Assembly: GCA_948433295.1 (NCBI GenBank) | Contig: CAOJDT010000012.1 | Coordinates: 1 to 34,370, forward strand | Source of the DNA: an uncultured bacterium | GTDB lineage: Bacteria; Cyanobacteriota; Vampirovibrionia; Gastranaerophilales; Gastranaerophilaceae | Reading direction: 5' to 3' | Length of the DNA: 34,370 nt | Shown here: positions 1,475 through 4,234 of the stretch, in pieces | How the letters are laid out: every line of letters begins with the position of its first letter | How positions within the stretch are numbered: position 1 is the stretch's first letter | Notes under the pieces: model-generated | Database searches by the model: none | What the model saw: the letters and a program-made list of their open reading frames with translations, nothing else | Told to the model about the DNA's origin: nothing | Program-made: the position numbers and the translations under genes

Positions 1475-1770
1475 GCTCTGTACGGGTGTTCAATTTTGTT
1501 CCTACATTTTTATTAATAGGGAGAGTTGACTCTGACAGGTATTGAAGTATACCCGCCGAAATTTATTTCGCCAGCGGGAAACGGATTTATCGAGGCGCTC
1601 ACCCACCTGCGAGCTCAGCAGGTAACAAAATCACATCCGAACAGGGCTTTTTTAGAGTGGGGGGATATACGAGTGTTCTATCATTGAGGGGCTTGAGCTG
1701 CAATAGCAGTGTTATCACGATTCTGAATCAAGTTCAGGATGGTGCAATGTCGTGAAAACTTGTATTATGC
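1475..1770 (+). ncRNA. Candidate structured non-coding RNA, unknown class
   Basis: The 400-base gap 1420-1820 has no convincing ORF but folds extensively by eye. A long-range stem pairs 1483-1489 with 1633-1639 (7 bp, one G-U) and 1493-1500 with 1624-1631 (8 bp). It encloses hairpins at 1522-1533 (AGAG/CTCT, TTGA loop), 1538-1553 (GGTAT/ATACC), 1553-1578 (two-part stem CGC..GCG plus CGAAA/TTTCG) and 1605-1623 (ACCTGC/GCAGGT). A 3' domain has hairpins at 1698-1709 and 1720-1740 (8 bp), the latter closed by CACG 1716-1719 with CGTG 1751-1754. It has a strong promoter, and the downstream gene has a separate promoter at 1772-1800. I looked for signatures of RNase P RNA, tmRNA, SRP RNA and common riboswitches and found none. 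A 6S-like RNA was considered but the multi-hairpin junction does not fit. The 3' end is uncertain, with no intrinsic terminator seen. It could instead be a long 5' leader. Confidence 0.5.
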
Positions 1771-1820: not shown

Positions 1821-3014
1821 ATGACAGAAAAGGTTTCAACGGTTATATTATCACATGAAGGCAATTTGAAAGAACTTTTAACATTGTATTTGCAAGAATA
1901 CGGAGGCTTTGATGTTCTTGACGGATTTGCCGGTAATTCTGAAATCTACAATACGCTCTCAGCATTGCCTAAATCTCTTGTTATTGCAGATATGCAGGAC
2001 GAATCTTTGATGGAATTTATCACAGAGGCGGCAGATTGTCCTAATTGTAAAATTCTGGCGGTTTCCGAAAATCCTACTGTTGATTTTATTGTAAAAGTTA
2101 TGCGTGCAGGGGCAAAAGAGATTCTTACTTCTCCGATTATAAAAACCGAATTTTTTGATGTTTTAAAACGGGTTACTGAACAGTTAAACGGCGAGTACCA
2201 AAAAGTTAACAAATGTCGTATGATGACTGTTTTTTCAAATAAAGGCGGAATCGGTAAAACTTCAATAGCTTTGAATCTGGCGCTTGAACTTGCAAAAACG
2301 ACAAAAGAAAATGTTGCGCTGATTGATTTGAATTTTCAACTTGGCGATATCACGACATTTATGGATTTGAAGCCATCGTTTAATATTTCTTATATGCTGA
2401 AAAATCCCGATAAATTAAATAAGGACTTTTTGCTTAATACACTCGAAAGATATAAAAACACGAGTCTTTATGTACTGGCAGACCCTCCTTATTTTAAACA
2501 GGCTGACGATATTTCATCAAAACAGGTTGCGCGTTTGTTTGAAATATTGAGAGAAAGCTTTTCTTATATTGTTGTAGATACGGATTCAAGTTTTGACGGA
2601 AAGACCATTACCGCTCTTGATAATTCGGATTTGTTGTTTCTTGTTACATGTATAAATCTCCCTGCATTAAGAAACTGCCAGCGCTGTTTGGATTTATTCG
2701 AGAAACTTGGTTATGAAGACGAAAAGGTTCAGATTCTTGTTAACAGATATATGGAAAATGACGAGATTAAGGCTGAAGACGCAGAAAAAGTGTTAAATAA
2801 AGAAATCTACTGGAAGATTCCGAACAACTATTTTACTATGATGGCTGCTATTAATAAGGGCGTAACCGTTTCTGAAATTAATGCTTCATCCAATGTCGCA
2901 CAAAGTTATAAAGAGCTTGCGATTCATGTTTCGGACAGTATTCACAGGCGTAAACTTATAAAGAAATATACTTCATCTTCTGTTGAAAATATAGATAATA
3001 TTTTGAAAGGTTAG
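1821..3014 (+). CDS. CpaE/TadZ-like ATPase: receiver-like domain plus MinD/ParA-type ATPase
   Basis: About 397 residues. The first ~120 look like a response-regulator receiver fold (starting TEKVSTVILSHEGNLKELL, with VIADM and ending near AKEILTSPIIKTEF). A MinD/ParA-type P-loop domain follows, with the deviant Walker A NKGGIGKTS around residues 140-148, switch-like LIDLNFQLGD and a Walker B-like YIVVDTDSSFDG. This matches CpaE/TadZ proteins, which localise the Tad/type IVc pilus machinery at the pole. The ATG at 1821 is chosen because AGAGG lies 5 bases upstream; an in-frame ATG at 1752 would begin inside the upstream structured RNA and has no site. It is followed after 2 bases by a CpaF-like gene. 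No pilin, secretin or TadB/TadC gene is in the window, so its partner apparatus is unknown. Confidence 0.8.
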   Translation: MTEKVSTVILSHEGNLKELLTLYLQEYGGFDVLDGFAGNSEIYNTLSALPKSLVIADMQDESLMEFITEAADCPNCKILAVSENPTVDFIVKVMRAGAKEILTSPIIKTEFFDVLKRVTEQLNGEYQKVNKCRMMTVFSNKGGIGKTSIALNLALELAKTTKENVALIDLNFQLGDITTFMDLKPSFNISYMLKNPDKLNKDFLLNTLERYKNTSLYVLADPPYFKQADDISSKQVARLFEILRESFSYIVVDTDSSFDGKTITALDNSDLLFLVTCINLPALRNCQRCLDLFEKLGYEDEKVQILVNRYMENDEIKAEDAEKVLNKEIYWKIPNNYFTMMAAINKGVTVSEINASSNVAQSYKELAIHVSDSIHRRKLIKKYTSSSVENIDNILKG

Positions 3015-3016
3015 TT

Positions 3017-4234
3017 ATGGCATTCAAAGACAGATTCAAAGAGACAATCATTCAACCTGTGGAGAGTATTATGGAATCCGGGGTGGCAGAGACTTCACAA
3101 CCTGATTTTATTGAAGATTTAAAGAGAATGCTTTTTCATAAACTTTCGGCAGTACCGGTATGGTTTGAATATTCCGAAGATGAAAAAACTTCGCTTATTG
3201 AGACTTTTCTTACAAATTATCTGAAAGAATCAGGGATGACTCTCGACGAAGATAAGAAAATACCGTTAGTAAATAATTTATTAAAAAGCGCCTACGGTTT
3301 TGGTGAATTGGATTTGTTACTTTCGGATGAAACTGTGTCTTCTGTAATTATAAAGGAAAATGAGAAGGTTCTTGTCGAACGCAACGGGAATTTGTCTGAA
3401 TCTGATGTTCCTGTCAAATCTGTTGAAGATTTGTGTGATAAGTTTCTAAAGATTGCGGGCGTTTCTCAAGAGACAAAGGTTGCAAAAGTAACATTTCGGA
3501 ATTTGATTGCTACTGTCATAAAGCCGCCTGTAAGTCATTATACGGTTGTTATTAAAAAGAAAAATCGTGAAGTTACTACTTTTAATTATCTTGTTGAAAA
3601 CGGATTTGTTGATGAGAAAATTCGTGCATTTTTGCTTTCTTTACTAAATAACAAAAAGAATATTCTGATTTCAGGTTCATCTAATTCAGGAAAGACTTCT
3701 TATGCGGAGAGTTTTCTGGAACATATTAAAATTCCTTTGCTTTTACTGGAGACTAAATCTTTAAATCGGGAAAGTTTTGTATGTTCGGGTTTGAATGATG
3801 ATGAATTTTGCAATTTAATTGATACTTTAAGTCTGTTTGAATCGGATTATTTGATTTGTGATTTGAATAACGGATTTTCGGATATTGAACATAAACCGTT
3901 GCTTTCAACATTCAGGGCTGAATCTATATCCAATGCTGTTTCAAAACTTGCGAACGGTCTTGCAGCTAAGAATAAACTCACTGACAAGCAGGCAAAAGCA
4001 CTCATTGCTTCAAAATTTGATTACATAATCCATCTTGATTCAATGTATATTGCATCAGTTTCAGAATTGTCATTGAATAAATCAGGCTCTCTTATTTTGA
4101 ATGAAGTTATTACGTGTGCTGACGGGCAGTATTCTTACGATTTGCCCGAGGTGGAAACTCCTGCTGCGGAAATTCGGGAAATTACACCACAAATCCCTGT
4201 TCTTGATGGTTCTTTTGCCGCTAGATTCAGGTAG
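3017..4234 (+). CDS. Degenerate CpaF/TadA-like secretion ATPase
   Basis: 405 residues. The N-terminal half (FGELDLLLSDETVSSVIIKE) resembles the CpaF region that defines hexamer packing. The P-loop GSSNSGKTS near residues 219-227 is intact. After it, the expected Asp box and Walker B are eroded: LLLLETKS is followed by SDYLICDLNNGF near 278-289, where CpaF/TadA ATPases normally have an acidic Glu and Arg (GEVRG type). The His-box region is also hard to find. The start is ATG at 3017, 2 bases after the stop of the CpaE-like gene, so the two are almost certainly co-transcribed. I infer an ATP-binding but possibly catalytically weak protein, perhaps regulatory or a specialised motor. The assignment rests on the layout and partner gene more than on strong motif identity. 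The 3' end overlaps the convergent gene by 8 bases. Confidence 0.6.
   Translation: MAFKDRFKETIIQPVESIMESGVAETSQPDFIEDLKRMLFHKLSAVPVWFEYSEDEKTSLIETFLTNYLKESGMTLDEDKKIPLVNNLLKSAYGFGELDLLLSDETVSSVIIKENEKVLVERNGNLSESDVPVKSVEDLCDKFLKIAGVSQETKVAKVTFRNLIATVIKPPVSHYTVVIKKKNREVTTFNYLVENGFVDEKIRAFLLSLLNNKKNILISGSSNSGKTSYAESFLEHIKIPLLLLETKSLNRESFVCSGLNDDEFCNLIDTLSLFESDYLICDLNNGFSDIEHKPLLSTFRAESISNAVSKLANGLAAKNKLTDKQAKALIASKFDYIIHLDSMYIASVSELSLNKSGSLILNEVITCADGQYSYDLPEVETPAAEIREITPQIPVLDGSFAARFR

Follow-up and report, generated by a model that had tools for sequence, protein, structure and literature searches.

The preliminary description of positions 1475–1770 of the window (the whole 34,370 nt stretch of DNA analysed here) presented this gap as a structured RNA of about 300 bases and of unknown class, independent of the cpaE-like gene downstream. 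This raised the question of which RNA, if any, is encoded at the locus, and how far it extends. The interpretation as an independent structured RNA with its own promoter, rather than a leader of the cpaE-like gene, was borne out by covariation and by loss of synteny; the unknown class and the length of about 300 bases were not. Instead, the region 1475–1653 on the forward strand is almost certainly the single 6S RNA gene of a Gastranaerophilales bacterium. 6S RNA is a well-known small RNA that mimics an open promoter and sequesters RNA polymerase; the Gastranaerophilales are non-photosynthetic relatives of the Cyanobacteria.

Identity of the RNA gene

A default Rfam scan with gathering cut-offs returned no match, and the preliminary description had stated that none of the signatures of 6S RNA fitted. 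It had also named a hit to an established Rfam family as evidence against a novel RNA. In E-value mode, such a hit was obtained: the 6S family RF00013 matched positions 1470–1653 along the full length of the model (1–187, end to end), with a score of 41.8 bits and an E-value of 5.2e-7. The curated gathering cut-off of RF00013 is 46.4 bits, an annotation threshold rather than a biological feature, and the window sequence lies 4.6 bits short of it. Default annotation misses the RNA because its score sits under this cut-off, and the score is low because the Gastranaerophilales diverge from the Rfam seed. Among 19 loci scanned, relatives above the cut-off included those scoring 58.5 (L066), 55.4 (L063 and L064) and 54.9 bits (L067). 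The RF00013 match was the sole 6S match in the genome, which is 99% complete. Weak matches to snoRNA and microRNA families in the E-value Rfam scan (snoR13, mir-208 and others) all had E-values of at least 0.5 and were dismissed as chance.

The gene, its structure, its homology, its copy number and the conservation of its template are direct results of the analysis. The RNA is an ordinary member of the 6S family that was previously unreported within the literature searched, in which no paper linked 6S RNA to Melainabacteria or Gastranaerophilales. Its identification fills in the main polymerase-directed small RNA for an order of gut bacteria documented mainly through metagenomes, and explains why many genomes of the order escape default Rfam scans.

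Secondary structure and covariation

The 178 nt at 1475–1652 folded better than all of 200 dinucleotide shuffles (z = −4.25), and the anatomy of 6S RNA is kept: a closing stem, an open central bubble with a hairpin on its 3′ side, and an imperfect apical arm. The 15 bp long-range stem reported from the first reading was recovered (1483–1489 with 1633–1639, and 1493–1500 with 1624–1631), and extends outwards by seven more pairs that had been overlooked (1475–1481 with 1641–1647). In the outer part of the closing stem, the 5′ strand at 1475–1489 (+; 1475–1481 and 1483–1489) has its partners at 1633–1647, and 13 of 14 consensus pairs show compensatory changes. The inner part, AUUUUGUU at 1493–1500 (+), pairs with 1624–1631 in 100% of 39 sequences, with A-U/G-C and U-A/A-U double changes in seven. 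The whole 3′ strand of the stem, at 1624–1647 (+), is defined by both the consensus and the minimum-energy structure.

The 5′ side of the central bubble (1501–1518, +) is unpaired in both of these structures. Four hairpins had been placed inside the long-range stem, where we found two branches instead. The first is the long imperfect apical arm at 1519–1604 (+; GGGAGAG...CUCACCC, with an internal stem-loop around GUAUACC...GGAAAC), which comprises consensus helices 3–7; 88–100% of cells are paired in these helices, and compensatory changes occur in helices 3, 4, 5 and 7. The second is the single hairpin on the 3′ side of the central bubble at 1605–1623 (+; ACCUGC...GCAGGU), corresponding to helix 8, in which 96.9% of cells are paired.

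Covariation was assessed in an alignment of 39 homologues with identity to the window sequence down to 52%. The RNAalifold consensus contained 46 pairs, 28 of which showed compensatory double changes, supporting the earlier proposal that the stems belong to an independent structured RNA. In a separate count on the same homologues, 94.4% of cells were paired, against 84.6% after shuffling and 39–46% with the partners slid, and the covariation score was 0.362 against 0.179; the shuffling control takes no account of relatedness and the structure came from the same sequences, such that these figures are supportive and are not to be read as probabilities. The size of the gap, together with changes across seven of the eight helices, leaves little doubt that the aligned sequences share a real structure. 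The covariance model built from this alignment, designated R1, scored 203.9 bits on the window RNA, which is itself a member of the seed.

Extent of the predicted transcript and its neighbours

The consensus promoter described upstream of the RNA is present at 1440–1468 (+; TTGTTA-17-TATAAT, with an extended −10 TG, TGTTATAAT). The promoter scan as a whole showed no excess over chance, with 22 promoters found and 19 expected; this one is believable because same-genus relatives retain it, equally far upstream of the same RNA. At the other end, a T run at 1648–1653 (+) directly follows the closing stem, and most relatives are likewise T-rich here. This run is the probable 3′ end or termination site; the scan called no short terminator hairpin at 1648–1653, and the closing stem may itself serve in termination. 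The conserved promoter and the T run bracket about 178 nt between predicted ends, compared with the discrete RNA of about 180–200 nt that is typical of 6S. The predicted transcript runs from G1475 to the T run (1475–1653, +), an assignment supported by the RF00013 and R1 matches, the compensatory changes and the fold z-score.

The previously proposed length of about 300 bases had included a second domain beyond this point, and what follows the 6S RNA of about 178 nt is instead a lineage-specific repeat insertion. A nucleotide search of relatives gave matches in 44 of 59 genomes, and the homology of the RNA ended at approximately 1654. In same-genus relatives the insertion of ~113 bp (~1654–1766, no strand assigned) is missing, and the empty site can be read as TTTTTT followed directly by ATGCCTTGC. 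The core of the inserted segment, GATYCTGAAWCAAGTTCAGRATG at 1719–1741 (likewise without strand), belongs to a dispersed palindromic, REP-like repeat; it occurs nowhere else in the window but at about 20 other places in the genome. This repeat of ~23 bp, GATCCTGAA(A/T)CAAGTTCAGGATG, is present in about 20 or more copies in the 1.96 Mb genome (loci L033–L056). A longer element with 75% identity, at G000:C9:2091-2169, joins the repeat to the TCATTGCGGGCTTGACCCGCAATC palindrome.

An RNA of about 300 nt, with 1654–1766 as its functional extension, would fit the hairpins into which this stretch folds and the fact that the T run is the only stop signal before it. However, the stretch folds weakly (z = −1.94), same-genus relatives lack it and its core is scattered through the genome, all of which makes a longer functional RNA very unlikely. 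The segment 1654–1766 is a dispersed repeat insertion lying between the 6S gene and the cpaE-like gene, outside the RNA.

The cpaE-like gene itself (1821–3014, +) encodes a cpaE/MinD-like ATPase with Pfam CbiA and AAA_31 matches, and is a neighbour only. The separate promoter previously assigned to it was confirmed at 1772–1800 (+; TTGCCC-17-TAAAAT) and is conserved in same-genus relatives. The gene follows the RNA on the same strand after 168 bp, and the 6S–cpaE order recurs in many close relatives, as might be expected if the RNA were a long structured 5′ leader, acting as a cis-regulator or attenuator with no independent role. Against this, many other relatives keep the RNA with no cpaE homologue in the flanking sequence examined (L007, L010, L011, L014, L019, L021, L025–L031 and others). 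The variable neighbour and the conserved promoter that the cpaE-like gene retains argue against a leader role, and the T run at the end of the RNA and the end-to-end 6S match likewise favour a separate 6S gene; we consider the leader explanation highly improbable.

Neither of the two large ORFs that flank the 6S/cpaE pair (16–1419 and 3017–4234) had a Pfam match. Most same-genus relatives also keep ORF 16–1419 upstream of 6S.

Distribution, relation to known 6S RNAs and the putative pRNA

By R1, 363 of 383 genomes of the order, representing 51 of its 52 genera, contain the RNA, nearly always in one copy. The good-quality subset gave 297 positive genomes out of 306; the nine with no R1 match (G080, G096, G148, G201, G230 and others) may reflect assembly gaps or divergence. 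RF00013 detected 6S RNA in 216 of 244 genomes across the phylum, in one copy each. R1 also matched six of eight cyanobacterial 6S loci at the same place as RF00013, with a best E-value of 5e-6. In whole-genome searches, R1 found three genomes of another family of the same class and one elsewhere in the phylum, and nothing at an E-value of 0.001 in the 14 remaining genomes that belong to the phylum but not to the class. It gave no match to E. coli ssrS. The failure of R1 to recover E. coli 6S and nearly all tested genomes outside the class indicates that sequence divergence is large.

The closest comparison is with cyanobacterial 6S RNA (6Sa/SsaA/Yfr7, RF00013; PMC1242208, PMC5721685), which shares the length of ~180 nt, the single copy, the closing stem, the central bubble and the 3′-bubble hairpin. 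Sequence blocks are also common to both, namely AAAAGGGAG, AGUAUACC, GGAAAC and CCCACCUG...CAGGU. The Gastranaerophilales RNAs differ in their lower RF00013 scores (~35–58 bits, versus ~66–117 for most cyanobacterial sequences), in an AU-rich inner stem (UUUUGWU/AWCAAAA) and in a near-invariant template block, UUUUGWUCCUACAU. The genomic neighbour differs as well, being often the cpaE-like gene in Gastranaerophilales, whereas the 6S gene is reported to lie beside purK in two freshwater cyanobacteria (PMC1242208).

E. coli 6S (ssrS) aligns to the same Rfam model and has the U44/C1505 column in common, but scores 139.8 bits against 41.8 for the window sequence, lies beyond the reach of R1 and has a different pRNA. 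B. subtilis 6S-1, like the Gastranaerophilales RNA, has a hairpin in the 3′ bubble, whereas B. subtilis carries two 6S paralogues in contrast to the single copy here. Ms1 of actinobacteria is structurally related to 6S and binds RNA polymerase (PMC9130861, PMC4191392). Ms1 binds the core polymerase lacking the primary sigma factor; the match here is to RF00013 itself. That the RNA belongs to a new class and is a convergent promoter mimic resembling 6S in outline only, as Ms1 does, would accord with the scores below the Rfam cut-off in the window and in many members of the order and with the failure of R1 to reach E. coli 6S, but is exceedingly improbable given the blocks AGUAUACC, GGAAAC and CCCACCUG...CAGGU held in common with cyanobacterial 6S, the agreement of RF00013 and R1 on position in both directions, the several order members above the cut-off and the single copy per genome across the phylum.

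As a 6S RNA, the transcript is expected to contain a template for a short pRNA. The block at 1493–1507 is more highly conserved than the rest of the bubble, with a mean column identity of 0.97 versus 0.75, and C1505 occupies the same Rfam model column as U44 of E. coli 6S, the known pRNA start site there. The putative template at 1493–1505 (+) gives a predicted pRNA of 5′-GUAGGAACAAAAU(U) from C1505 (or U1507). From C1505, the putative pRNA would read 5′-GUAGGAACAAAAUU, resembling the pRNAs quoted for B. subtilis (5′-GUUCGGUCAAAACU) and Aquifex (5′-GUAGGCCCCAUUGACAA) (PMC12005410); like that of B. subtilis 6S-1, it would begin with G and carry CAAAA in the same place.

In characterized 6S RNAs, polymerase is freed by a short pRNA that it transcribes from the 5′ side of the bubble (PMC8876501, PMC12005410). 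Polymerase binding, pRNA synthesis, its start site and the physiological role of the RNA described here are all inferred from such known 6S RNAs. The RNA would be transcribed from its own promoter and adopt a rod with a central bubble that mimics an open promoter. It would be expected to capture polymerase carrying the primary sigma factor, and to lower or redirect transcription under nutrient shortage; several proteins with a sigma-70 region 4 are encoded in the genome. On the return of nucleotides, polymerase would copy the conserved 5′-bubble template into a short pRNA, and this pRNA, starting at C1505, may invade the inner closing stem (1493–1500 with 1624–1631) and release the polymerase. 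In constrained folds, blocking at least 11 template bases opened the inner stem, and no new release helix was predicted with the template blocked. A central-bubble collapse helix has been proposed for B. subtilis (PMC8876501), in contrast to the RNA studied here, for which none is predicted.

The overlap of the near-frozen template UUUUGWUCCUACAU with the inner closing stem leads us to raise, as a rather doubtful suggestion, that the Gastranaerophilales RNAs form a distinct 6S sub-type in which pRNA synthesis directly unzips the stem. If true, the release mechanism would match neither the E. coli type nor that of B. subtilis. The sequence of the predicted pRNA is testable, and an order-specific model and alignment would permit consistent annotation of the gene.

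In Synechocystis, 6S RNA has a role in recovering from nitrogen starvation (PMC5721685). Taken with the presence of 6S RNA in non-photosynthetic sister lineages, this role suggests that control by 6S arose earlier in the phylum than the functions tied to photosynthesis.

Among named genomes, a motif scan picked out mainly records labelled Gastranaerophilales or Melainabacteria. Pattern matches in Erysipelothrix (L098/L105), Lachnoclostridium (L104) and Leptolyngbyaceae (L141) were not 6S by Rfam, and the Erysipelothrix match falls in 23S rRNA. Viral contigs with the template pattern were considered as carriers of phage-borne 6S and rejected: L187, L188 and L191 had no 6S match by Rfam, and R1 gave only tiny partial matches in seven contigs (E-value of 0.33), none in L186, and a 92 nt match at an E-value of 0.001 in L189. 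Metagenome-assembled genomes named Acinetobacter or Fusobacterium bear the Gastranaerophilales 6S motif (L077, L091 and L128; L077 has a weak RF00013 match of 35 bits), and are probably mislabelled bins.

A second 6S copy in genome G012 (G012:C6:74754-74941, L057) looks less like a paralogue than like part of a foreign, contaminating contig. It is 86% identical to a sequence from another genus and is without the neighbours usually found beside 6S; contamination of the genome stands at 4%. Genome G300 has two 6S copies. Finally, the 6S RNA at L061 (G020:C13, 1979–2239, reverse strand) carries ~70 extra bases in the apical arm, and at 261 nt scores 104.8 bits by R1.
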